In this document: positions 6,007-36,225 of the stretch, one piece after another
Position numbering within the stretch: position 1 is the first letter of the stretch
How the letters are laid out: every line of letters starts with the position of its first letter
NCBI RefSeq assembly: GCF_000160775.2
Contig: NZ_CM001024.1
Location: forward strand, 2,027,063-2,091,062
From: Aeromicrobium marinum DSM 15272
GTDB taxonomy: Bacteria; Actinomycetota; Actinomycetes; Propionibacteriales; Nocardioidaceae
Length of the DNA stretch: 64,000 nucleotides
Direction of reading: 5' to 3'
Position numbers and translations under genes: made by a program
The notes under the pieces: generated by a model
Told to the model about the DNA's origin: nothing
The model's input: only the letters and a program-made list of their open reading frames with translations
Databases searched by the model: none

Positions 6007-7017
6007 TCAGTACTGCTCGTCCTCGGCGAAGCTCGCGTCCTCGTCGTAGTCGGCGATGACGGCGGACGGGTCGAACCCGGCCGGGCTGTCCTTCAGGGCC
6101 AGGCCCATCTCGGCCAGCTTCGCCTTGACCTCGTCGATCGACTTCGAGCCGAAGTTGCGGATGTCGAGCAGGTCCTGCTCCGAGCGCGTGATGAGCTCAC
6201 CCACGGTGTGGATGCCCTCGCGCTTGAGGCAGTTGTAGGACCGCACCGTGAAGTTCAGGTCCTCGATCGGCAGGGCCAGGTCGGCAGCGAGCTGCTCGTC
6301 GACCGGGCTCGGGCCGATGTCGATGCCCTCGGCCTCGACGTTCAGCTCACGGGCCAGACCGAACAGCTCGACCAGGGTCGACCCGGCCGACGCGATGGCG
6401 TCCCGCGGGAGGATCGACTTCTTGGTCTCGACGTCGACCACGAGCCGGTCGAAGTCGGTCCGCTGCTCGACACGCGTCGCCTCGACCTTGTAGGTGACCT
6501 TCAGCACCGGGCTGTAGATCGAGTCGATGGGCATGCGCCCGATCTCCTCGTCACCGGTCTTGTTCTGCACCGCCGACACGTAGCCGCGGCCCCGCTCGAC
6601 GACCAGCTCGATCTCGAGCCGGCCCTTGTCGTTGAGGGTAGCGACGTGCAGGTCCGGGTTGTGCACCTCGACGCCGGCCGGGGGCTCGATGTTGGCTCCC
6701 GTGACGACGCCGGCGGTGTCGGCCCGCAGGTACATGACGACCGGCTCGTCGTTCTCGGAGGAGACGACGAGGTTCTTCAGGTTGAGGATGATCTCGGTGA
6801 CGTCCTCGGTGACACCGGGGACGGTCGAGAACTCGTGCAGGACACCGTCGATCTTGATCGAGGTGACGGCCGCACCCGGGATCGACGACAGCAGCGTACG
6901 ACGCAGCGAGTTGCCGAGGGTGTAGCCGAATCCCGGCTCGAGGGGCTCGATGACGAACCGCGAACGGAACTCGTCGACGACCTCTTCGGTCAGGGTGGGG
7001 CGCTGGGCGATCAGCAT
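6007..7017 (-). CDS. rpoA: RNA polymerase alpha subunit
   Basis: The 336-residue alpha subunit, which nucleates polymerase assembly as a dimer. The N-terminal assembly domain (about residues 1-230) contains [22 protein letters not shown]. The C-terminal domain (about 245-315) contains the DNA- and activator-binding part, with LTVRSYN-like [14 protein letters not shown] and [14 protein letters not shown] short acidic tail ends the protein. It lies 55 bases after rpsD. Length and motifs are normal. Confidence 0.98.
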
Positions 7018-7072
7018 GTGTGTTCCTTTCCGGGGCCACCACTATTTGAGGACCCGGTTCGAAGGGGGGTGA

Positions 7073-7681
7073 TCAGATCTTGGAGTAGTACTCCACGATG
7101 AGCTGCTCCTGGATCGGCACCGTGATCTGCTCACGGACCGGCTGCTGGTGCACCAGGATGCGGCCACGGGTGGGCGAGACGTCGAGCCACGCCGGCACCG
7201 TGTCGGAGTCGTGGGTCTCACGCGCGATGATGAACGGCGTGGTCTCCAGGCTCTTGGGCTTGACGTCGATGATGTCGAACTTGCTCACCTGGAAGGACGG
7301 GATGTTCGTCTTGACGCCGTTGACCAGGAAGTGACCGTGGGTCACCAGCTGGCGGGCGTGGCGCCGCGTGCGGGCCAGGCCCGAGCGGTAGACGACGTTG
7401 TCCAGACGGCTCTCGAGCATTGTCAGCAGGTTGTCGCCGGTCTTGCCGGGCCGGCGCGAGGCCAGCTCGTAGTAGCGACGGAACTGCTTCTCGAGCACGC
7501 CGTAGGTGTAGCGAGCCTTCTGCTTCTCCTGCAGCTGGGTGCGGTACTCGGACTCCTTGATCCGGGTCCGGCCGTGCTGTCCGGGGGGGTACGGGCGACG
7601 CTCGAACGCGGCGTCACCACCGACGAGGTCGACGCCGAGACGACGCGACTTCTTCGTGAGAGGACCGGTGTAACGGGCCAT
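7073..7681 (-). CDS. rpsD: Ribosomal protein S4 (uS4)
   Basis: A 202-residue primary 16S-binding protein and early assembly factor. It begins MARYTGPLTKKSRRLG and has the S4 RNA-binding domain around residues 92-155 (SRLDNVVYRSGLARTRRHAR). The N terminus lacks the CxxC pairs of zinc-binding S4, so this is the zinc-free form, unlike L36 and S14 in the same window. It is read between rpsK and rpoA in the usual alpha-operon order. Confidence 0.97.
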   Translation of the reverse strand: MARYTGPLTKKSRRLGVDLVGGDAAFERRPYPPGQHGRTRIKESEYRTQLQEKQKARYTYGVLEKQFRRYYELASRRPGKTGDNLLTMLESRLDNVVYRSGLARTRRHARQLVTHGHFLVNGVKTNIPSFQVSKFDIIDVKPKSLETTPFIIARETHDSDTVPAWLDVSPTRGRILVHQQPVREQITVPIQEQLIVEYYSKI

Positions 7682-7711
7682 GGTGGTTGCTCCTAGGGGA
7701 AAGTTCGAACG

Positions 7712-8110
7712 TCAGAGACGACGGTGCTTGGGCGGGCGGCAGCCGTTGTGGGGGCTGGGGGTCACGTCGGAGATGGTGCCGACGTCCAGACCGACACCGC
7801 TCAGGGAGCGGATCGCGGTCTCTCGGCCCGAACCGGGGCCCTTGACGAACACGTCGACCTTCTTCATCCCGTGCTCCATGGCCTGGCGGCCGGCGGCCTC
7901 CGCAGCCATGCCCGCCGCGAACGGCGTGGACTTGCGCGAGCCCTTGAACCCCACGGTGCCACCGGAGGCCCAGGCGATGACGGCCCCGGACGGATCGGTG
8001 ATGGTGACGTGGGTGTTGTTGAACGTGCTCTTGATGTGGGCTTCGCCCTGAACGACGTTCTTCTTCTCCTTGCGACGCACCTTCTTGGTGCCGGCACTCT
8101 TGGGAGGCAT
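7712..8110 (-). CDS. rpsK: Ribosomal protein S11 (uS11)
   Basis: A 132-residue small-subunit platform protein contacting 16S rRNA at the E/P-site region. The start at [14 protein letters not shown] is fixed by homology to actinobacterial S11; the open frame continues about 120 codons further upstream, but that part overlaps rpsM and is not coding. Conserved segments include [15 protein letters not shown] and [17 protein letters not shown]. It begins seven bases after the rpsM stop. Confidence 0.97.
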
Positions 8111-8117
8111 CAGGCGA

Positions 8118-8486
8118 TCACTTCTTCTTTCCGGCGACGGTGCGCTTGGGGCCCTTGCGGGTCCGCGCGTTGGTCTTGGTGCGCTGGCCACGGACGGGCA
8201 GGTGCGCGCGGTGGCGACGGCCCTGGTAGCTGCCGATCTCCATCTTGCGGCGGATGTCCGCCGTGACCTCACGTCGCAGGTCGCCCTCGACCTGGTAGTG
8301 GGCCTCGATGTGGTCACGCAGGGCGACGAGCTGGGAGTCGTCCAGGGCGTGGACCCGGGTGTGGGGATCGATGCCGGTGGCGGCGAGGGTCTCGGTGGCG
8401 CGGGTGCGTCCGATACCGAAGACATAGGTGAGTGCGATCTCGATGCGCTTCTCGCGCGGGAGATCAACTCCTACGAGGCGTGCCAT
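8118..8486 (-). CDS. rpsM: Ribosomal protein S13 (uS13)
   Basis: A 122-residue small-subunit head protein that contacts P-site tRNA and the L5 bridge. The start at [21 protein letters not shown] is the standard one; an upstream in-frame extension is not conserved. The basic tail ([17 protein letters not shown]) that reaches the decoding region is intact. A 182-base gap with a hairpin separates it from rpmJ. Confidence 0.97.
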
Positions 8487-8595
8487 AGAGGCAGTTCCTT
8501 CCGTTGAGCGAGGTGTGGTCACCTGAGGCGTCCCGGCTGCCTCCAGGACCGCTGGGGATCCTGAGCCGGGCCCCGGCCTACGCTTCCGGGGGTGA

Positions 8596-8616
8596 CCCGC
8601 CACCCTCGGTGGCGGG
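8596..8616 (-). other. Hairpin in the rpmJ-rpsM gap
   Basis: CCCGCCACC and GGTGGCGGG form a perfect nine-base-pair stem with a three-base loop inside the 182-base gap between rpmJ and rpsM. It lacks a T-run. A partial terminator, an attenuator, or a boundary before a second internal promoter are all possible. Nothing else coding was found in this gap. Confidence 0.5.
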
Positions 8617-8668
8617 AGCGTTCAGATGTTGCGTGGTGCTGGTGAAGAAGACCTGCTGGGGCTCTGCG

Positions 8669-8782
8669 TCAGCCCTGTCGCTGCTTGTGACGAGGGTTCT
8701 CGCAGATCACCATGACGCGGCCGTGGCGACGGATCACCTTGCACTTGTCACAGATCTTCTTCACGCTCGGGTTGACCTTCAT
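8669..8782 (-). CDS. rpmJ: Ribosomal protein L36 (bL36), zinc-binding type
   Basis: A 37-residue large-subunit protein found by reading the strand directly. It starts [20 protein letters not shown] and ends in RHKQRQG. Cys11, Cys14, Cys27 and His32 form the zinc ribbon, so this is the zinc-dependent (C+) form. It lies 45 bases after infA in the expected infA-rpmJ-rpsM order. A zinc-free paralogue, if present, would be elsewhere in the genome. Confidence 0.96.
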
Positions 8783-8827
8783 GAGAACTCTCTTCGGGTG
8801 CAGTGCGTGCGTGATGGACGTGCGTGT

Positions 8828-9049
8828 TTACTTGTAGCGGTAGACGATGCGTCCACGGCTGAGGTCGTACGGCGAGAGCTCCACCACGACCCGGTCCTCG
8901 GGGAGGATCCGGATGTAGTGCTGGCGCATCTTGCCGCTGATGTGGGCGAGCACCTTGTGCCCGTTGGCCAGCTCAACGCGGAACATCGCGTTGGGGAGAG
9001 CCTCCACCACCGCGCCTTCCATCTCGATGACGCCTTCTTTTTTCGCCAT
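8828..9049 (-). CDS. infA: Translation initiation factor IF-1
   Basis: A 73-residue S1/OB-fold factor that binds the ribosomal A site during initiation. It starts [20 protein letters not shown] and ends RIVYRYK, a full-length family match. The upstream in-frame codons are not conserved. It is the first gene of the alpha-operon block, about 120 bases downstream of a good promoter. Confidence 0.98.
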
Positions 9050-9177
9050 GAACCTCAGCTTCTCGTGTCGACTTCGTCGGGACGGCCAGCGCACGCACGA
9101 CAACCCTCCGCTCTCACGGGTCCGGGTGGGGACTGCCTGACGGCAGGGGAAGGCGCGCCTGTAAAGGCCGACAGGCA

Positions 9178-9207
9178 AGTGTACGCCGGGCGGGTCCCGG
9201 TGTTCAA
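9178..9207 (-). promoter_or_regulatory. Promoter of the infA-rplQ operon
   Basis: On the minus strand TTGAAC (-35) and TACACT (-10) are separated by 18 bases, a close match to the primary sigma factor consensus. Transcription should start near 9171, giving a leader of about 120 bases before infA. The gap to the serine hydrolase gene at 9230 contains nothing else. Confidence 0.7.
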
Positions 9208-9229
9208 ATCGGCCTCGGCGGTCGCGGCC

Positions 9230-10093
9230 TCAGGTCAGGGCAGCCACGGCGGCCGCGCCGAGGCGGTCGGACAGGGCGACACCCTCGGCGAGGGTGGGCG
9301 AACCCTCGGTGAGCACGGCCATGAAGCGAGGGCGGCCGTCGGTGGTCACCTGCCCGATGCTCGTGACGACCCACCGCCCTGTGGTGGACCGCTGCAGCAG
9401 GCCGACCTTGAGGGGGGTGGTCGCCGGGTCGTCGGCCGCGGCACCGACCCCGAAACGCTGGTCCGGGGCCACGTCGGTCATGGCCTGCTGCAACCAGATC
9501 CGGTGCTCGGTCGAGACCGGCGAGTCCGCCGCGAACACGCGCTGCAGGAGTCTGACCTGGGCGGTGGCGGTGGTCCGGGTCAGGCCCCAGTCGGCGCCCG
9601 GAGGGACGTCGATGCCCTCGACGCCGAGCCGGGCGTTGACCGCTTCCAGACCGGACTCCCCTCCGACGGCCCGGAACAGGGTGCTGGTGGCGTCGTTGTC
9701 ACTGACCGTGATCATCCGGGTCGCGAGGTCACGCTCGACCGACGTGAGCCCGCGGTCCTCGTCCTGCACCCGCAGGAGCAGGGCCACGGCGATGTCCACC
9801 TTGACGATGCTGGCCGTGTCGAACGCTCCCGGGTCACCCCAGGTGGTCACCTCACCGGTCGGGCCGTCCAGCACGGCGACCGACCAGCGCGCGGTCGTCG
9901 CGACGTCGAGCTCGGGCACGGCCCGCAGCGCAGGGGGTCGTCGCTCCAGGGCAGCCGGGATCGGCCCGACGGCGGACGCCACGGGCGCGGTCCCGACCGG
10001 GGCGGGCCCGTCCACCTCGGACAGGAGGGCCGCCTGTCCGTTGACCAGGACCGCGAGCACGAACGCGACGACGAGCGGCCGCTGGATACTCAC
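9230..10093 (-). CDS. Exported serine hydrolase, class A beta-lactamase-like fold
   Basis: A 287-residue protein with an N-terminal hydrophobic segment (residues 6-24), so secreted or membrane-anchored. It carries the SxxK catalytic motif (S95-I-V-K98) and an SDN loop (S131-D-N133). The third motif, usually KTG or KSG, appears to be K229-V-G231, and no clear omega-loop ExxLN Glu is visible. It is probably a penicillin-interacting or other serine hydrolase rather than an active beta-lactamase. The GTG start has TAGCCT six bases before it, suggesting a leaderless mRNA. It belongs to the small island between the spc and alpha blocks. Confidence 0.78.
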   Translation of the reverse strand: MSIQRPLVVAFVLAVLVNGQAALLSEVDGPAPVGTAPVASAVGPIPAALERRPPALRAVPELDVATTARWSVAVLDGPTGEVTTWGDPGAFDTASIVKVDIAVALLLRVQDEDRGLTSVERDLATRMITVSDNDATSTLFRAVGGESGLEAVNARLGVEGIDVPPGADWGLTRTTATAQVRLLQRVFAADSPVSTEHRIWLQQAMTDVAPDQRFGVGAAADDPATTPLKVGLLQRSTTGRWVVTSIGQVTTDGRPRFMAVLTEGSPTLAEGVALSDRLGAAAVAALT

Positions 10094-10151
10094 GCGAGGA
10101 GGCTAGGCGACCCAGATGTCCGGGAGATCAACACCGGCTGTGCGCTCGCTG

Positions 10152-10607
10152 TCAGTCGGCGGTACCGAGCGCTGCCCGCCGCTCGACCAGCCTCGACAGC
10201 ACGATCGCCGTCTCGGTGCGTTCGACCGCCGCGGCGCGGGTGCGGACCCGCTCCAGGGCGTCCTCGAGGTGCCGGACGTCGCGCGCCACGATGCGCAGGA
10301 TCGCGTCCGCCTGACCGGTGACCGTGGCGGCGTCCTGCACCTCCGGCACGCCCGCGAACGACGCGCGCAGCTCCTCGGGCCCGATGGTGCCGTGGCAGTG
10401 CACCTCGACGTAGGCCTCGGTGGTCCAGCCCAGGTGGGCCTGGTCGATCACCGCGGTGAAACCGCGCACGATCCCGTCGGCCACGAGCCGGTCGACGCGT
10501 CGCTTCACCGCCGGCGCGGACAGCCCGACCCGGTCCCCCAGCACCGTGTAGCTGGCGCGCCCGTCCTCGACGAGCAGGGCGAGCAGGCGTTCGTCGATGG
10601 CGTCCAT
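10152..10607 (-). CDS. Lrp/AsnC family transcriptional regulator
   Basis: A 151-residue feast/famine regulator: a winged helix-turn-helix in residues 1-60 (YTVLGDRVGLSAPAVKRRVDRL) and an amino-acid-sensing RAM domain in about 65-145. The chosen ATG (MDAIDERLLALL) is the family start; 30 further in-frame codons upstream are not conserved and would run into the divergent promoter region. It is divergent from ddaH, with 139 bases between them. Lrp-type genes next to arginine or ornithine genes commonly control them, so regulation of ddaH is likely, though inferred from position. Confidence 0.9.
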   Translation of the reverse strand: MDAIDERLLALLVEDGRASYTVLGDRVGLSAPAVKRRVDRLVADGIVRGFTAVIDQAHLGWTTEAYVEVHCHGTIGPEELRASFAGVPEVQDAATVTGQADAILRIVARDVRHLEDALERVRTRAAAVERTETAIVLSRLVERRAALGTAD

Positions 10608-10640
10608 CCGCCCATGGTGCAAGAAACCGTCGTGGAACGG

Positions 10641-10656
10641 AAATCTGCGCAGCAAT
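10641..10656. promoter_or_regulatory. Candidate Lrp-type operator between lrp and ddaH
   Basis: The core CTGCGCAG is a perfect eight-base palindrome flanked by AAAT on one side and CAATT on the other, an AT-rich flank pattern typical of Lrp/AsnC sites. It lies in the 139-base divergent gap, 34 bases upstream of the regulator's ATG and about 90 bases before the ddaH GTG. A TAGCAT -10-like element for ddaH is at 10708-10713. Confidence 0.45.
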
Positions 10657-10746
10657 TCGCCGCGTGCGACGCCAGTTTCTGCTTCGTCCGTCGACACCGC
10701 CGGCCCCTAGCATGGATTCGTTGCATCGTTCGACGAAGGAGAGCAC

Positions 10747-11619
10747 GTGACGGTCCTGGACGACCCGCGGACGGGTCCGCAGCCCGCACCCGGCACGGTC
10801 CGCTCGTCACGGGCCCGTCGCTACGTGATGTGCCGCCCGACCGCGTTCGCCGTCCGGTACGCCATCAACCCGTGGATGGACACCTCCGTCGCGGTCGACC
10901 GGGCCCGTGCGCTCGCCCAGTGGGAGGCGCTGGTCCGGACGTACCGGAGCCACGGCCACACCGTCGAGCTGATCGAACCCCTCGCGGACCACCCGGACAT
11001 GGTGTTCGCCGCCAACGGGGCCGTCGTCGCCGGTGACCGGGCGTACGGCTCGCGGTTCCGGTACACGGAACGTGAGGCCGAGGCCCCGGCCCACGCCACC
11101 TGGCTGACGGCGCACGACTTCGCGGTGCAACCGGCCGGTCACCCCAGCGAGGGCGAGGGCGACTTCCTGGTCCTGGCCCACGCCGTCCTCGCGGGCAGCG
11201 GGTTCCGCACCGACCTCGCCGCCCACGTCGAGGCGGCCGCGGTGCTCGACCGGCCGGTGGTGTCCCTCGAGCTGGTCGACCCGAGGTTCTACCACCTCGA
11301 CACCGCCCTGGCCGTGCTCGACGACGGACACGGGGAGGCGCCACCGGACATCGCGTACTTCCCCGGCGCGTTCAGCCGACACAGCCGTCGGACCCTGCGC
11401 GAGCTGTTCCCGGATGCGCTCCTGTGCTCCGAGGCCGAAGCCCTGTCGTTCGGGCTCAATGCGGTCGGGGACGGACGGCACGTGTTCCTGCCGGCCGACG
11501 CGACCGAGCTGGCCGGGCGGCTGGCCGCCCGGGGCTACGCTCCGGTGCCGGTCGACCTCGACGAGTTCCTCAAGGCCGGCGGCAGCGTCAAGTGCTGCAC
11601 CATGGAACTGCACCGCTGA
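10747..11619 (+). CDS. ddaH: Dimethylarginine dimethylaminohydrolase (arginine-modifying family)
   Basis: A 290-residue pentein-fold enzyme expected to hydrolyse methylated arginine to citrulline plus methylamine or dimethylamine. Supporting features are MCRPTAFAVRYAINPWMD near the N terminus, the catalytic His in FYHLDTALAVL, a Glu/Asp-containing GEGDFLV segment, and the nucleophile Cys in GSVKCC close to the C terminus (C283 or C284). AAGGAG precedes the GTG start at a good distance. The divergent Lrp-type gene suggests control by an amino acid. A related amidinohydrolase activity is possible. Confidence 0.85.
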   Translation: MTVLDDPRTGPQPAPGTVRSSRARRYVMCRPTAFAVRYAINPWMDTSVAVDRARALAQWEALVRTYRSHGHTVELIEPLADHPDMVFAANGAVVAGDRAYGSRFRYTEREAEAPAHATWLTAHDFAVQPAGHPSEGEGDFLVLAHAVLAGSGFRTDLAAHVEAAAVLDRPVVSLELVDPRFYHLDTALAVLDDGHGEAPPDIAYFPGAFSRHSRRTLRELFPDALLCSEAEALSFGLNAVGDGRHVFLPADATELAGRLAARGYAPVPVDLDEFLKAGGSVKCCTMELHR

Positions 11620-30512: not shown

Positions 30513-31247
30513 TCAGGGAACCGTCGGTCCCGCGAGCAGGGCGGCTCCGGCCTCGCCGTCCACCTCGAGCCGGTCGTGCGGCCAACGGTTCCACAGGCCC
30601 AGGTAGAGGGCCTCCGCCGTGCCGCGGATCTCCGCGTCGTGCGGGGTCCCCGGCGCGTCGTAGGCCAGCACCGGCGGCGCGTGCAGCCCGCTGCCCGGTT
30701 CGAGCAGCCAGGTCCGGCCGACGTCGGTGGCGGTGATCCGCACCCGTCCCTGCAGGTCGGGCCGCCGGCCCCGGGCGGTCATCCGGGGGAAGAACACGGT
30801 GAGGACCTCGTCGACCCCGTCGGCGGCCAGCACCGGCGCCACCGGCCATCCACCGCCGTCCATGCCCAGGGCCTGGGCCACGTCGACGCTGTGCACGGTG
30901 GTCTCGTGCAGCTGTCGCCGCGGCCAGAAGGCGGCCCGCTCCCGGATCAGGGAGAAGTTGGGCGTGGGCTCGTCCGGGTGCACCGCCTGCAGCACGGCCA
31001 GCAGGGCCGAGGCGACAGCGGCGTACCACTCCGACACCGGCTCGGTCACGACGACGTCGGCCGGCTGGTCCACCCGTTGCCCCGACATCACGGTCGCCGC
31101 GGCCCACCGGTGCACGGTTCCGAGGTGGCGGGTCAGGTCGGCCACCGTCCAGCCCGGGCACGCGGGCACCTGCTCGGTGCCGAAGGCGGCGTCGCTGAGC
31201 TCGGCGTACCGGGTCATCGCTGACCCGAGTTCGACCAGGTGGTCCAT
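30513..31247 (-). CDS. Mycothiol-dependent maleylpyruvate isomerase family protein
   Basis: A 244-residue DinB-like four-helix-bundle protein of the MDMPI type, with a C-terminal sterol-carrier-like domain. The metal site is predicted from H46 (TRHLGTVHRW) and the pair E115 and H119 (LHETTVHSVD). The family uses or handles mycothiol, but most members have no known substrate. Its start follows the dehydrogenase stop after one base, so it is the last gene of the hydroxyacid operon and translationally coupled to it. It may help dispose of a reactive product, which is inference. Confidence 0.85.
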   Translation of the reverse strand: MDHLVELGSAMTRYAELSDAAFGTEQVPACPGWTVADLTRHLGTVHRWAAATVMSGQRVDQPADVVVTEPVSEWYAAVASALLAVLQAVHPDEPTPNFSLIRERAAFWPRRQLHETTVHSVDVAQALGMDGGGWPVAPVLAADGVDEVLTVFFPRMTARGRRPDLQGRVRITATDVGRTWLLEPGSGLHAPPVLAYDAPGTPHDAEIRGTAEALYLGLWNRWPHDRLEVDGEAGAALLAGPTVP

Positions 31248-31248
31248 G

Positions 31249-34119
31249 TCAGGCCTCCAGCAGCTCGGCGAGTGTCAGGGCTCGGGTGGCCGCGAGGTCC
31301 AGCAGCTGGGTGCGGCACGAGAACCCGTCGGCCACAACGATCGCACCCGGGGGTGCGTTACGAACCGCCGGAAGCAGCTGGTGCTCCCCCACCGCCACCG
31401 ACACGTCGTAGTGCCCCTTCTCGACCCCGAAGTTGCCCGCCAGGCCGCAGCAGCCGGCCAGCCGTTCGATCGACGCACCGGTGCGCTCCATCACCGCCAG
31501 GTCGGCCTCGAAACCCATGACCGACGCCTGGTGGCAGTGCGGCTGCACCACCAGGGTCGTGCCCGTGAGGTCCGGCGGCTGCCACCCCGGGGTCCGCTCC
31601 AACAGCTCGGCCAGGGTCGCCACCCCGCCCGCGACCTCGGCGGCCCGGGGGTCGTCGGTCAGCTCGACGGCGTCGGAGCGCAGCACCGCCAGGCAGGAGG
31701 GTTCGACCCCCACCACCGGCACGCCGGCCACGACGAACGGGTGCAGGGCGTCGATCGCCGTCATGACGAGCTCGCGGGCCCGGTCGAGCTGTCCGGTGGT
31801 GATCCACGTGAGTCCGCAGCACACCTGACGCGACAGCACCTGGACCCGGTAGCCGGCCGACTCCAGCAGGCGGACCGTCGCGTGGCCGCCTGCCGTCTCG
31901 AAGAACTCGGTGAACGAGTCCACCCACAGGAGCACCGGTGGCGCGTCGACGCCCGGCGCGCCGGGACGGTCGTGGGCGAGCGGAACAGCCCGCCGGCGCT
32001 GTCGGCGCAGGGTGCGGGAGAAGGGCCGGACCGCGAACGGCGGGAGGCTGCGCCGCTGGTCGACGCCCGCCACCCACCGCGCGAGGTGGGCCAGGCCGGG
32101 GGTCCGCAGGCTCAGGTTGACCAGTCGGGCGACCGGCGAGGTGAGCCGGGCCCAGAACGGCAGCCGGCCGAGGACGTAGTGGCTGCGGGGGCGCAAACGG
32201 CCCCGGTAGGTCTGGTGGAGCACCTCCGACTTGTAGGTCGCCATGTCCACGCCCGTCGGGCAGTCGCTCAGACAGCCCTTGCACGACAGGCACAGGTCCA
32301 GCGCCTCGTGGACCTCCGGAGAGCGCCAGCCACCGGTCACGTGCCGGCCGTCGACCATCTCCTGCAGCACCCGCGCCCGACCACGGGTGGTGTGCTTCTC
32401 GTCGCGGGTCGCCTGGAAGGAGGGGCACATGACCCCGCCGGTGGCCCGGTTGTCGGCGATGCACTTGCCCACCCCGGTGCAGCGGTGGACGGCCGCGCCG
32501 AAGTCGCCGTCGTCGTGCAGGAGCCGCAGGCCCCGTCGCGACGACGCCCGACCGGGGTCCCACCCACGACCGGAGCCGCGCAGGTCGTCGTCGACGGCTG
32601 CGGGCTCGACCAGCACCCCGGGGTTCAACAGGTTCCGCGGATCGAAGATCTGCTTGACCCGGGCGAACGTCTCGATCGCCTCGGGCGAGTACATCAACGG
32701 CAACAGCTCCGAACGGGCACGACCGTCCCCGTGCTCGCCGGAGAACGAACCGCCGTGGCTCGCGGTCAGCCGGGCCGCGTCGTGGAGGAACGAGCGGAAC
32801 GCCTGGTGCCCGTCGGGCTGGTCGAGCCCGAAGCTGATCCGCACGTGCACGCATCCGTCGCCGAAGTGTCCGTACGGCACGCCGTCGACGCCGTGCTGGA
32901 GGAGGAGGGCCTCGAAGTCCCGCAGGTAGGCGCCCAGTCGCGCCGGCGGGACCGCTGCGTCCTCCCACCCCGACAGCGCGGGCCGGTCCAGGGCGCGGGC
33001 GGCCAGGCCCGCACCCTCCTCGCGGATGCGCCAGAGCACGGCCTGCTCCCCCACCGCGGTGACGTGCCGGTGCTCCAGCGCCCCGGCCGCGGCCACGACG
33101 TCGTCGGCCCGGGCCGCGAGCTCGGCGGGGTCCTCCCCCGCGAGCTCGACGTACAGGTACCCGCCACCGCGCGGCAGGTCGGGCACGGCGGCCGGCCCCT
33201 TGGCGGACCGGTACACCTCGACGATCCGCTGGCCGAGGCCCTCGCACGCCGTGGGACCGAACGGCAGGACGTCCGGCACGTGGTCGGCGGCCTCGGCCAT
33301 CGTCGCGTAGCCCAGCACGACGAGGTGACGCCACGACGGGTCGCGGACCAGGTCGACGGTGGCACCTGTCACGAGGGCGAGCGTGCCCTCGGTGCCGGCG
33401 AGGAACGAGGCGACGTCGAAACCGCGCTCCGGCAGCAGGTGCTCGAGGCTGTAGCCGGACACCTGCCGGCCGAAGGTCCCGAACTCGGTGCGCACCATGG
33501 CGAGTCGCTGGCCGACCTCCGCCCGCAGGCGGTCGAGGGTGGCCGAGGTCGGAGCCGGCCCGGATCCCAGCCGGAGGCGCTCCCCGCCCGCGGTGACGAC
33601 CTCGAGCGCCGAGACGTTGTCGGCGCTGCGGCCGTACCCGAGGGCGCGGTTGCCGCAGGCGTTGTTGCCGATCATCCCGCCGACGGTGCACCGGGTGTGG
33701 GTGGACGGGTCGGGGCCGTAGCGCAGTCCGTGGGGCGCCGCCGCACGCTGCAGCACGGCGTGGACGACGCCGGGGTCCACCCGGGCGGTGGCAGCCTCGC
33801 GGTCGATCGCGTGGACCCCGTTGAGGTGGCGGGTGAAGTCGACCACGATGCCGCGGCCGACCGCGTTGCCCGCGATCGACGTGCCGGCGCCGCGCGCCGT
33901 GATCGGGACGCCGGTCTCGGCACTGGCGTCGACGACGGCCAGCACCTCGTCGACGTCGCGCGGACGCACCACCACCTGGGGCACGATCCGGTACAGCGAG
34001 GCGTCGGTGCTGTAGGCCGCCCGGGTCGTCGACGTGGCGTCGACCTCCGTGACTCCTCGCCGCTGCAGCGCCGCCACCACGTCGGCGGTCGCCGCCACCG
34101 GTCCGGTCACGATCGTCAT
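31249..34119 (-). CDS. FAD- and Fe-S-binding D-2-hydroxyacid dehydrogenase (D-2-hydroxyglutarate dehydrogenase candidate)
   Basis: A 956-residue fusion of a GlcD/Dld-type flavin half and a GlcF-type iron-sulfur half. The FAD domain (about 35-260) contains TARGAGTSIAGNAVG. The FAD-oxidase C domain (about 265-505) has H418, H425, E462 and H463 at the metal and catalytic positions (PYGHFGDGCVHV, GEHGDG). C547, C553 and C565, then C610, C613, C616 and C620, supply Fe-S ligands. Two cysteine-rich repeats (C767-C768-G, C890-C891-G) end the protein. It resembles E. coli YdiJ and probably oxidises a D-2-hydroxyacid at the membrane. The transhydrogenase upstream points to D-2-hydroxyglutarate. GAGAGGAG precedes the ATG. 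Confidence 0.9.
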   Translation of the reverse strand: MTIVTGPVAATADVVAALQRRGVTEVDATSTTRAAYSTDASLYRIVPQVVVRPRDVDEVLAVVDASAETGVPITARGAGTSIAGNAVGRGIVVDFTRHLNGVHAIDREAATARVDPGVVHAVLQRAAAPHGLRYGPDPSTHTRCTVGGMIGNNACGNRALGYGRSADNVSALEVVTAGGERLRLGSGPAPTSATLDRLRAEVGQRLAMVRTEFGTFGRQVSGYSLEHLLPERGFDVASFLAGTEGTLALVTGATVDLVRDPSWRHLVVLGYATMAEAADHVPDVLPFGPTACEGLGQRIVEVYRSAKGPAAVPDLPRGGGYLYVELAGEDPAELAARADDVVAAAGALEHRHVTAVGEQAVLWRIREEGAGLAARALDRPALSGWEDAAVPPARLGAYLRDFEALLLQHGVDGVPYGHFGDGCVHVRISFGLDQPDGHQAFRSFLHDAARLTASHGGSFSGEHGDGRARSELLPLMYSPEAIETFARVKQIFDPRNLLNPGVLVEPAAVDDDLRGSGRGWDPGRASSRRGLRLLHDDGDFGAAVHRCTGVGKCIADNRATGGVMCPSFQATRDEKHTTRGRARVLQEMVDGRHVTGGWRSPEVHEALDLCLSCKGCLSDCPTGVDMATYKSEVLHQTYRGRLRPRSHYVLGRLPFWARLTSPVARLVNLSLRTPGLAHLARWVAGVDQRRSLPPFAVRPFSRTLRRQRRRAVPLAHDRPGAPGVDAPPVLLWVDSFTEFFETAGGHATVRLLESAGYRVQVLSRQVCCGLTWITTGQLDRARELVMTAIDALHPFVVAGVPVVGVEPSCLAVLRSDAVELTDDPRAAEVAGGVATLAELLERTPGWQPPDLTGTTLVVQPHCHQASVMGFEADLAVMERTGASIERLAGCCGLAGNFGVEKGHYDVSVAVGEHQLLPAVRNAPPGAIVVADGFSCRTQLLDLAATRALTLAELLEA

Positions 34120-34138
34120 GGTGACTCCTCTCGCCTCA

Positions 34139-34150
34139 GTAGCATGCTAC
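34139..34150. promoter_or_regulatory. Perfect palindrome, candidate operator of the GntR regulator
   Basis: GTAGCATGCTAC is a perfect 12-base palindrome. It overlaps the stop codon of the GntR gene and lies 19 bases before the dehydrogenase ATG. FadR-type GntR proteins bind short palindromes of this size, often their own operon. Position and symmetry are seen; binding is inferred. Confidence 0.45.
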
Positions 34151-34872
34151 CTGTCGCCGGGACCCGTCACCGCGAGGAGGGCCCGCACCCGGTCGCCCCA
34201 CCGCGAGTCCGACGACCCGGCCGGCTCCCCCGCCACCTGCTGCACCAGCAGCTCGGCGGTCCCGATCAGGTGCTCCGACATCCGGCGCGCCGCCTCGTGG
34301 GGGTCGCGACTGCGGATGGCCTCGACGATCGGCACGTGCTCCTCGGCGATCTCGGGCATGCGACGGGTGCGACCGATCGTCGAGACGCCCCGGGCCTGGA
34401 TCGTGTCGCGCAGACGGTGCACCTGGTCCTGCCACCGCGGGTTGTTCAGGACCGCCCCGATCCGGGCGTGCAACGCCCGGTCCACGCCGGTGAACTCCGG
34501 CTCGTCCGGCGTGTGCGCGGCCTCCCGGAGCCGGCCGACGAGCCGGTCCAGGTCGTCGATCGCGGCCCGGTCGGCGTGCCGGGCCGCGAAGGCGGCCGCC
34601 GGCGACTCCAGCAGGACCCGCAGCTCGAAGACGGCGCGGACGTCCTCGACGGTCACGCCCCGGATGCGGACCCCCCGGTTGCGCTCGATGGCGACCAGCC
34701 CCAGATCGGCCAGGCGCAGGACGGCGTCGCGCACCGGGGTCCGGGAGACACCGAGGTCCTCGGCCAGCCGGTAGATCGAGTGCTGGGACCCCGCGACCAG
34801 CTCGCCGCTGACGACCGCCTCGCGCAGCGCCAGGAACACCCGGTCGGTGGCCGTCGTCCGCTCGTCGCTCAC
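34147..34872 (-). CDS. GntR family regulator, FadR/FCD type
   Basis: A 241-residue transcription factor. The winged helix-turn-helix (about 8-78) contains IYRLAEDLGVSRTPVRDAVLRL. The FCD ligand domain (about 85-215) contains the helical LRVLLESPAAAFAARHA region and later histidines (EEHVPIVEAI, SEHLIG) that usually bind a metal and a carboxylic acid ligand. The regulator sits between the transhydrogenase and dehydrogenase genes, 42 bases after one and 27 before the other. FCD regulators commonly sense hydroxyacids such as lactate or glycolate, so an operon substrate is the likely signal. Confidence 0.92.
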   Translation of the reverse strand: MSDERTTATDRVFLALREAVVSGELVAGSQHSIYRLAEDLGVSRTPVRDAVLRLADLGLVAIERNRGVRIRGVTVEDVRAVFELRVLLESPAAAFAARHADRAAIDDLDRLVGRLREAAHTPDEPEFTGVDRALHARIGAVLNNPRWQDQVHRLRDTIQARGVSTIGRTRRMPEIAEEHVPIVEAIRSRDPHEAARRMSEHLIGTAELLVQQVAGEPAGSSDSRWGDRVRALLAVTGPGDR

Positions 34873-34914
34873 CGCCGGCTCGTCACGGTCCGGGCGGCCC
34901 TCACGAGGCGCCCG

Positions 34915-36225
34915 TCACCACAGCTCGATCGACTCGGTCAGGATCTGCGCCGCATCGTCCTCGCCGACCTCCCGCGGTGCCGTGGCGAGCAGCCGCTGCT
35001 GCTTGAGGGTGCCCTCGACGAGGTCGTCGATATCGCCGGCGCCGAACCCGACCGCGCCGATGCCCGCCGGCATGTCGATGTCCCGCATCAGGGTCGTGAG
35101 CACCGACGGCAGCTGCTCACGGGGGTCGTCGGTGCGGTCGGCCCCGGGGCCGAGCAGCTCCGCGGCCCGCAGGTGCCGTTCCGGTGAGGCCTCGAAGGTG
35201 AACCGGAACGCCGCGGGAGCGGTCAGGGAGACCGCCATGCCGTGCGGCACCATCGGGTGCGCGGGCTGGCCGTCCAGGTCGGGGTACCCGGGCGGGTGGA
35301 AGGTCGTCACCTGACCGGCGATCGGGTAGGCGTTCGCGTGCGGGATGTGCACGCCGGCGTTGCCGAAACCCAGTCCGGCGAACGTCGCGGCCAGTGACAT
35401 CTGCTCGCGCGCCTGCAGGTCGTCGCCGTCACGCACCGCCGTGCGGAACGCGGTGGCCAGCAGTGCCATGGCCCGCTCGGACCACACGTCGGCGATCGGG
35501 TTGGAGCCGCAGTAGGGCACGCGCTCCTGCGGCTGCTTGGCGTCGAACGACGTGTACGGCCGGGCGGTGTAGCTCTCGAGGGCATGGCAGAGGATGTCCA
35601 TGCCCGATGCGGCGGTGACGGCCGACGGCTGGGTGACGGTCAGCTCGGGGTCGACGATCGCCATGGTGGGCCGCAGCCGCGGGTGCGAGATGCCGGTCTT
35701 GACGTGCTGGGCCACCACGTCGAGCACGCAGATCGTGGTGCTCTCGCTGCCGGTCCCGGTGGTGGTGGGCAGGGCGATGAGGGGCAGCAACGGGTGCTGG
35801 GGCGCCCGCGCCCGTCCGACCGGGGCGTTGACGTAGTCCATCAGCTCGCCGTCGTTGGTGGTCAGCAGGTTCACCGCCTTGGCGGTGTCGATGCTGCTGC
35901 CGCCCCCGACGGCCACGACGGCGTCGAACGGGCCCTCGGCCCGCGCGAACGCGATCGCCTCCTCCAGGCTCGTGTCGGTGGGCTCCACCCGACTGTCGGC
36001 GAACACCACGACCTCGATGCCGTCCCCGCGCACCCGCTCGGCGATCCGGTCGACGACGCCGGTGGCCGCGACGCCGGGATCGGTCACCACCAGCACCCGC
36101 CGCGCTCCCAACGCCGCCAGGTCGTGGCCGAGCTCGTGGCGGGCACCCACACCGAACTTCAACGCCGGCGAGGCATAGGTGAACACGGTCTCGGGGTGAG
36201 CCGGGTGGTACGACGGTGATGACAC
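34915..36225 (-). CDS. Hydroxyacid-oxoacid transhydrogenase (ADHFE1-like iron alcohol dehydrogenase)
   Basis: A 436-residue iron-type alcohol dehydrogenase of the HOT subgroup. The cofactor site is VGGGSSIDTAKAVNL (G107-D113 region). Metal ligands are D210 (SGMDILCHALES), H214, H296 (HIPHANAY) and H328 (VPHGM). The insert with YCGSNPIADVW and the end LVEGTLKQQRLLATAP match mammalian HOT closely. HOT oxidises 4-hydroxybutyrate to succinic semialdehyde while reducing 2-oxoglutarate to D-2-hydroxyglutarate with a tightly held cofactor. The GTG start has AAGGAG at good distance. First gene of the operon. Confidence 0.92.
   Translation of the reverse strand: MSSPSYHPAHPETVFTYASPALKFGVGARHELGHDLAALGARRVLVVTDPGVAATGVVDRIAERVRGDGIEVVVFADSRVEPTDTSLEEAIAFARAEGPFDAVVAVGGGSSIDTAKAVNLLTTNDGELMDYVNAPVGRARAPQHPLLPLIALPTTTGTGSESTTICVLDVVAQHVKTGISHPRLRPTMAIVDPELTVTQPSAVTAASGMDILCHALESYTARPYTSFDAKQPQERVPYCGSNPIADVWSERAMALLATAFRTAVRDGDDLQAREQMSLAATFAGLGFGNAGVHIPHANAYPIAGQVTTFHPPGYPDLDGQPAHPMVPHGMAVSLTAPAAFRFTFEASPERHLRAAELLGPGADRTDDPREQLPSVLTTLMRDIDMPAGIGAVGFGAGDIDDLVEGTLKQQRLLATAPREVGEDDAAQILTESIELW

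Follow-up and report, generated by a model that had tools for sequence, protein, structure and literature searches.

In animals, the transhydrogenase HOT (ADHFE1) and the dehydrogenase D2HGDH carry out a two-step D-2-hydroxyglutarate cycle, and in Caenorhabditis elegans the HOT orthologue HPHD-1 and DHGD-1 are reported to run this cycle on 3-hydroxypropionate (PMC10096224). We propose the same two steps for a gene cluster found in a 64,000-nucleotide stretch of the Aeromicrobium marinum DSM 15272 genome (contig NZ_CM001024.1, positions 2,027,063 to 2,091,062, with the whole stretch referred to here as the window), which encodes a HOT-subfamily protein, a GntR regulator, a YdiJ-like dehydrogenase (DH) and a protein of the mycothiol-dependent maleylpyruvate isomerase (MDMPI) family. 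The cluster differs from the animal system, where the nematode substrate is 3-hydroxypropionate, in being bacterial and in having linked genes with a local regulator. Human D2HGDH lacks the iron–sulphur/CCG half of DH and has roughly half the length of that protein (481-residue chain, 6lpn).

The YdiJ proteins of Escherichia coli and Pantoea, which are reported to be strictly specific for D-2-hydroxyglutarate (PMC9504171), share the domain order of DH and its active-site pattern, including an Arg at the position of human Asn443. In E. coli, menI and ydiK flank ydiJ, and no HOT or GntR gene is named among the 15 features listed for that region. The d2hgdh product of Achromobacter is a different type of dehydrogenase from DH, and the Agrobacterium regulator BlcR is of another family than the GntR protein of the window. 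In the Achromobacter DhdR–d2hgdh operon a GntR-family gene likewise stands beside a dehydrogenase gene, with DhdR described as a repressor of d2hgdh which binds GTTATCAGATAAC and is freed from DNA by D-2-hydroxyglutarate; section 6 of that paper names genes often found beside d2hgdh, and HOT is absent from them (PMC8651671). Agrobacterium BlcC, BlcB and BlcA are reported to take γ-butyrolactone via 4-hydroxybutyrate and succinate semialdehyde to succinate, and a lactonase-family gene likewise stands beside HOT in relatives of the window; the window itself has no adjacent lactonase, and a D-2-hydroxyglutarate loop is not mentioned for blcABC in the available sections of the source (PMC6402643). 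An earlier prediction made from the DNA alone (the original prediction) knew of no described bacterial operon of this kind, and no description of a bacterial HOT operon appeared in the titles, abstract openings and passages we searched on HOT/D2HGDH in bacteria, operons, lactonase and Actinobacteria, with subscription papers mostly outside the scope of the search.

From comparisons of the sequences, we consider it probable that HOT and DH constitute a two-enzyme D-2-hydroxyglutarate cycle, most likely acting on 4-hydroxybutyrate. HOT would oxidise a small ω-hydroxyacid, with 4-hydroxybutyrate the most likely one, to the semialdehyde as 2-oxoglutarate is converted to D-2-hydroxyglutarate, and DH would oxidise the latter back to 2-oxoglutarate, with the electrons probably passing to the respiratory chain. 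2-Oxoglutarate would be a catalytic electron carrier, and the alcohol step would proceed without free NAD. A succinic semialdehyde dehydrogenase from another part of the genome would then convert the semialdehyde further. The original prediction had proposed such a cycle and is partly supported: the gene pairing, the HOT subfamily and the fit of the DH residues all speak for it. The cycle is not new to biology, having been described in C. elegans. We regard the gene pair of the cluster as real and conserved, with a likely local operator and informative relatives, and its proposed reactions as a probable bacterial version of a metabolic cycle that is already known. If the shuttle reading is true, D-2-hydroxyglutarate would be a purposeful intermediate of a bacterial pathway and not only a waste product of serine synthesis, and the cluster, the partner gene, the palindrome and the lactonase-linked relatives described below provide a concrete, testable proposal for bacteria.

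The gene cluster and its two enzymes

The features of the cluster are as follows, with positions given for the window.

34915–36225, minus strand: HOT-subfamily iron-containing alcohol dehydrogenase, predicted hydroxyacid-oxoacid transhydrogenase (436 aa; Pfam Fe-ADH, 3.5e-49)
34147–34872, minus strand: GntR regulator with FCD domain (241 aa; Pfam GntR, 3.4e-12, and FCD, 4.6e-25)
34139–34150, no strand: 12-bp perfect palindrome GTAGCATGCTAC ahead of DH, sharing bases with the stop codon of GntR; predicted GntR operator
31249–34119, minus strand: YdiJ-like FAD/4Fe-4S D-2-hydroxyacid dehydrogenase, DH (956 aa); predicted D-2-hydroxyglutarate dehydrogenase
30513–31247, minus strand: MDMPI family protein (244 aa; MDMPI_N, 4.6e-18, and MDMPI_C, 2e-13)

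The coordinates, strand and intergenic gaps of the four genes (42, 27 and 1 bases) are as originally predicted, and the domain identities given for the four proteins were matched by their Pfam content, with Fe-ADH and ADH_Fe_C in HOT, GntR and FCD in the regulator, and MDMPI_N and MDMPI_C in the last protein. HOT begins with a GTG codon at 36225 preceded by AAGGAGA (36237–36231). The description of the cluster as one regulated operon is qualified by the GntR gene and presumed operator being located between HOT and DH, which places the site ahead of DH and not of HOT.

The HOT subfamily (cd08190 of the iron alcohol dehydrogenases) is distinguished by a 19-residue insertion between α5 and α6 (loop 1) and a 13-residue insertion between α8 and α9 (loop 2) (PMC5125639), and in the window protein these loops are 20 and 21 residues long, respectively. 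We recounted both in all 153 distinct rows of an alignment drawn from 213 loci with a match, 211 of them stop-free. Loop 2 has 16–22 residues in 98/98 rows with at least 43.9% identity to the window HOT (the window counted in), and loop 1 has 19–21 residues in the 96/96 that are informative (L092 and L098 were left out as HOT is truncated at the end of the locus). Among the 54 iron alcohol dehydrogenase rows with no more than 36.5% identity, loop 2 has 3–4 residues in every one (54/54), and loop 1 has five or fewer in 41, ten in one and at least 17 in 12, with the haloarchaeal rows having the first insertion only; L191, which stops within loop 2, was dropped from these counts. By the two-insertion criterion the window protein is a member of the HOT subfamily, since both HOT-specific insertions are present. 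The GGGS coenzyme motif (G107–S110), D210, H214, H293, H296 and H328 are invariant (14/14), and the Asp/His/His/His metal ligands are kept. Many close homologues carry the NCBI name hydroxyacid-oxoacid transhydrogenase, the closest named ones being from Aeromicrobium, the NCBIfam equivalogs of other iron alcohol dehydrogenases match HOT at scores far under their cut-offs, and among proteins of solved structure its best relatives are methanol and propanediol dehydrogenases of bacteria.

The DH protein has the Pfam order FAD_binding_4, FAD-oxidase_C, Fer4_8 and CCG, a YdiJ/GlpC-like two-part layout, and shares 28% identity with E. coli YdiJ over almost the full length. Its score of 427.4 bits falls below the 1350-bit cut-off of the YdiJ equivalog NF049975, and YdiJ proper was rejected for this reason; the label YdiJ-like used in the original prediction is borne out by the layout and identity and limited by this score. 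The arrangement of H418, H425, E462 and H463 claimed there is present and, together with R366 and R427, is invariant in 66/66 homologues (66 distinct sequences from 82 loci, with matches spanning 700 or fewer query residues dropped). In human D2HGDH the equivalent Arg386, His434, His441, Glu475 and His476 are described as common to 2-hydroxyacid dehydrogenases, and Lys401, Thr390, Tyr432 and Asn443 as holding the far carboxylate, with Asn443 binding the C5 carboxylate and replaced by a hydrophobic residue in GlcD and most D-lactate dehydrogenases (PMC7801405). Arg427 of DH occupies the Asn443 position, where YdiJ also has Arg and GlcD has Leu, and DH combines a YdiJ-type domain order, the Arg/His/His/Glu/His site and Arg at this position. 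With Arg427 shared by YdiJ, which is reported to be specific for D-2-hydroxyglutarate, this residue pattern favours a dicarboxylic 2-hydroxyacid as the substrate, without proving it.

Alternatively, HOT might be a conventional iron alcohol dehydrogenase that depends on NAD, and DH a dehydrogenase of D-lactate or glycolate, with their proximity serving some other catabolism of alcohols or hydroxyacids. Both families are wide and no NCBIfam equivalog reaches HOT or DH at its cut-off, and in one genome without a detectable HOT (G228) the DH gene is found among genes for an aldehyde dehydrogenase, an ABC transporter, a monooxygenase and an aminotransferase. We nevertheless find this explanation very improbable: a plain NAD-dependent alcohol dehydrogenase was set aside because of the two HOT-specific insertions, and the case for a lactate or glycolate dehydrogenase is weakened by Arg427, as found in YdiJ and in place of the hydrophobic residue of GlcD.

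HOT–DH pairing across genomes

We surveyed 58 relatives and a class sample of 296 genomes, with the window's own genome included in every count, using E ≤ 1e-60 for the detection of HOT and DH and a distance of 1 kb or less as adjacency. HOT was present in 39/58 relatives and 35/296 class-sample genomes, and DH in 52/58 and 161/296. Within the genus, DH is adjacent to HOT in 29 of the 31 other HOT-bearing genomes (27/29 loci plus 2/2 further genomes), the exceptions being G004 and G019 where MDMPI directly follows HOT and DH is located elsewhere. In the class sample the two are adjacent in all seven HOT genomes of the genus (7/7) and in 14/28 of those outside it; the latter belong to four families, with nine in f1, two in f23, two in f43 (where the genes are divergent) and one in f20. 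Conservation of the pairing in relatives, which the original prediction had put forward as a check, was therefore upheld. DH was found in 33/35 HOT genomes compared with 128/261 of those without HOT (Fisher p = 6e-8, not corrected for kinship), and outside the genus in 26/28 compared with 127/260 (p = 3e-6, likewise uncorrected). HOT and DH overlap slightly, by a few bases at their predicted ends, in several of the genomes, an arrangement seen in translationally coupled genes.

A tree of 67 rows (66 DH proteins plus YdiJ) requires five changes in adjacency to HOT, which indicates that the link has been gained or lost several times. This tree was produced by a quick method with a simple model, with the long branches of YdiJ and L170 flagged, and only the spread of adjacency was used; L170 was marked as non-adjacent although its distant DH is divergent to the HOT gene. 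Neighbour maps were drawn with a simple gene caller which missed at least one lactonase gene (L129) and left the GntR genes of L147 and L148 unmarked, and absences from these maps are no proof.

Two further arrangements were seen beside HOT. The Thermoleophilia metagenome-assembled genome represented by L170 has a 1017-aa FAD/CCG dehydrogenase (6802–9852, minus strand), 28% identical to DH, divergent to a HOT gene (10001–11266, plus strand), and this is perhaps an independent pairing. In f1 outside the genus, a gene for a small DUF1648-type protein (c26) follows HOT in L113 (10046–10543), L117, L121 and L127; where DH is present it lies between HOT and DH, and the predicted ends overlap.

Lactonases and other clues to the substrate

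A gene for a metallo-β-lactamase-fold, lactonase-family protein is located directly upstream of HOT in G158 and G254 (10 bases, with DH downstream), and also in G077, Streptomyces antioxidans and Actinomycetospora cinnamomea, while in a Rubrobacter metagenome-assembled genome it is downstream of HOT. The best solved match of the G158 protein is 6cgy (E 7e-44, deposited as Beta-lactamase) followed by the lactonase GcL, and it scores under every NCBIfam lactonase cut-off. A Streptomyces niphimycinicus match was not counted as it spans residues 2–80 only. L177, L178 and L181 (Natrinema, Natribaculum and Halorubrum) also have a lactonase-like gene directly upstream of a HOT-like iron alcohol dehydrogenase; these haloarchaeal neighbours (27–30% identity) were disregarded as evidence on HOT, since the second insertion is missing from the enzymes.

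In L133 and L137 HOT comes after genes for a flavin-monooxygenase-like protein and an α/β hydrolase (with one extra gene between in L137) and before a thioesterase gene, a 4HBT-type thioesterase flanks HOT in L124, L125, L133, L135, L137 and L160 (convergent in L124 and L125), and in L134 HOT lies ahead of an aldehyde dehydrogenase gene. Before the monooxygenase, hydrolase, HOT and thioesterase genes of L133 (3232–11464) and L137 come P450, zinc alcohol dehydrogenase and other genes, and the whole resembles a cluster for ketone or ester degradation with HOT at its end. Neighbours which might release hydroxyacids (lactonase, hydrolase or thioesterase) are found at a minority of HOT loci, and the common theme suggested by these genes is one of enzymes that could release a free hydroxyacid. 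Other neighbourhoods yielded no single pathway, including those in f4 with an ABC transporter and HAD hydrolase, those in f7 with P450, flavin monooxygenase and α/β hydrolase genes, and those with Peptidase M3 (Intrasporangium) and Zn-ribbon neighbours. In the f4 loci L141, L142, L143 and L144, HOT and the genes for an oligopeptide-type ABC transporter (SBP_bac_5) are divergent, a HAD hydrolase accompanies the transporter, and no DH was called near HOT on the neighbour maps.

Our best guess for the substrate is 4-hydroxybutyrate or a near relative, because of the lactonase neighbours and the γ-butyrolactone pathway of Agrobacterium. A succinic semialdehyde dehydrogenase is encoded in the same genome outside the window (PRK09407, 761 bits against a cut-off of 521). 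The same cycle could alternatively oxidise 3-hydroxypropionate to malonic semialdehyde, as a bacterial version of the nematode propionate shunt, given that the C. elegans HOT orthologue HPHD-1 is reported to use this donor with D-2-hydroxyglutarate as the co-product (PMC10096224) and that 4HBT-type thioesterases beside HOT could free the hydroxyacid from its CoA ester. We consider this donor unlikely, as the lactonase neighbours suggest lactone-forming acids such as 4-hydroxybutyrate, and no propionate-pathway gene was seen among the annotated neighbour proteins, most neighbours being unannotated.

The GntR regulator and its palindrome

The GntR/FCD protein has an Asp and three His residues (D131, H135, H179 and H201) at what we take to be the usual places of the metal-binding FCD pocket. 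In the whole 3.08-Mb genome a degenerate form of the adjacent palindrome, GTWRCATGYWAC, matches at this one site and its reversed control at none. Among the 58 relatives, the exact 12-mer was found once each in 11 genomes, in every case (11/11) at a GntR gene with HOT and/or DH. At 29 other Aeromicrobium HOT loci, the palindrome (with one mismatch or none) is present in 22/22 with an adjacent GntR gene and in 0/7 without. It forms a conserved island common to the 22 loci, with the best other 12-mer found in 12/22 and variable flanks, and an artefact of GntR coding was rejected because the spacing between the palindrome and the end of the aligned GntR residues ranges from 2 to 90 bases. Where the gene order is GntR–HOT–DH the palindrome precedes HOT, and where it is HOT–GntR–DH, as in the window, it precedes DH. 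It is also found ahead of lactonase–HOT–DH in G158 and G254, in one of the two with a single mismatch, and in a one-mismatch form ahead of lactonase–HOT in G077. In the class sample, GTARCATGYTAC has 15 places in 14/296 genomes (reversed control in three genomes), 11/15 of which have a DH or HOT gene no more than 1 kb away, the two lactonase–HOT–DH genomes among them. The palindrome and the lactonase neighbours of HOT are new in this analysis.

This coincidence with GntR genes leads us to infer that the window GntR protein binds the palindrome, which is probably a local operator; the TAGCAT within it is possibly a −10 element. The regulator would repress DH in the window, or both HOT and DH in other gene orders, and release the palindrome upon the build-up of D-2-hydroxyglutarate or the hydroxyacid, with D-2-hydroxyglutarate our leading guess for the inducer. 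The arrangement is DhdR-like in gene placement and site, with a GntR gene beside DH and a palindrome ahead of it. Both the published DhdR operator (PMC8651671) and the window palindrome are palindromic with GT...AC ends, although the letters differ. Should the GntR protein respond to D-2-hydroxyglutarate, another DhdR-type regulator would be known together with its DNA site.

A number of observations weigh against the cycle as we propose it. DH occurs in many more genomes than HOT does (161 and 35 of the 296), it lies apart from HOT in 12 HOT genomes of the class sample (including G077, where adjacency cannot be judged as both genes are at contig ends), the two are non-adjacent in 7/7 HOT genomes of family f4, and no DH was detected at our threshold in the HOT genomes G190 and G223. 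The palindrome in the window is not in front of HOT, and four of the 15 GTARCATGYTAC sites are at neither HOT nor DH (G066, G131, the first of G228, and G102). Besides the failure of DH to reach the YdiJ cut-off, the human Lys401 that is critical for the C5 carboxylate is kept neither in DH nor in YdiJ, and Arg427 is family-wide and not peculiar to HOT-linked copies. There is no lactonase among the four genes of the window, which in this respect is not of the blc type, and the best lactonase match in its own genome is weak (26% identity) and located elsewhere. Finally, DH remains without HOT at the same genus locus in G006 and G281, which retain GntR–palindrome–DH–MDMPI, and its persistence there indicates that DH has another use at this locus and is not exclusive to HOT.

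Such observations would suit a housekeeping role in which DH, under its own GntR regulator, clears D-2-hydroxyglutarate leaking from enzymes such as SerA, a reported source of it in E. coli (PMC9504171), with HOT only loosely associated and supplying some of it. The wider distribution of DH, the two genus loci without HOT and the palindrome ahead of DH all fit this explanation, as do G004, G019, G030, G032 and G200, in which a GntR gene, the variant palindrome GTAACATGTTAC and DH are found with no HOT beside them (HOT is elsewhere in the genome in G004, G019 and G200). We judge it improbable in view of the HOT–DH adjacency, which is far above expectation for unlinked genes and found in four families with changing gene order, of the near-constant presence of DH in HOT genomes, and of the palindromes ahead of lactonase–HOT–DH and lactonase–HOT, and retain the two-enzyme cycle as the preferred reading. 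More tentatively, and as a possibility we would not yet lean on, the Actinomycetota may have a dedicated, locally regulated module based on a 2-oxoglutarate/D-2-hydroxyglutarate electron shuttle, in which lactones or esters would be opened, the hydroxyacid oxidised by HOT and the electrons passed by DH into respiration, with D-2-hydroxyglutarate as the inducer acting through GntR and the palindrome.

Two genomes with palindrome-type sites and no HOT at our threshold have related surroundings. In G228 (L271, 2970–15232) DH is divergent to an aldehyde dehydrogenase gene, with an oligopeptide-type ABC transporter, a luciferase-like monooxygenase and a class-III aminotransferase (Pfam) as neighbours, and two palindrome-type sites lie ~7 kb apart, one ahead of DH and the other between the monooxygenase and the solute-binding protein. 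G131 (L272, 4151–14982) is similar by eye and has the second palindrome-type site only.

The genome around the cluster (G000) is a single contig of 3.08 Mb. On one flank are rpoC (identified by eye) and acyltransferase, NUDIX and lipoprotein-like genes in mixed orientations, the acyltransferase and NUDIX genes assigned by Pfam and the lipoprotein-like genes having no Pfam match, and on the other is rpsL–rpsG–fusA–tuf, again assigned from the sequence by eye. The MDMPI protein scores 77.6 bits against a cut-off of 50 for TIGR03083, placing it in this family, and on the neighbour maps MDMPI occurs next to the HOT/DH module only in loci of the genus. It contains HLGTVH at residue 41 and HETTVH (E-x-x-x-H) at residue 114, which together are possibly the metal triad of MDMPI enzymes. 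Elsewhere in the window, positions 1695–1714 hold the longest even perfect palindrome among those listed, CGCGGGCGTGCACGCCCGCG, of 20 bp.

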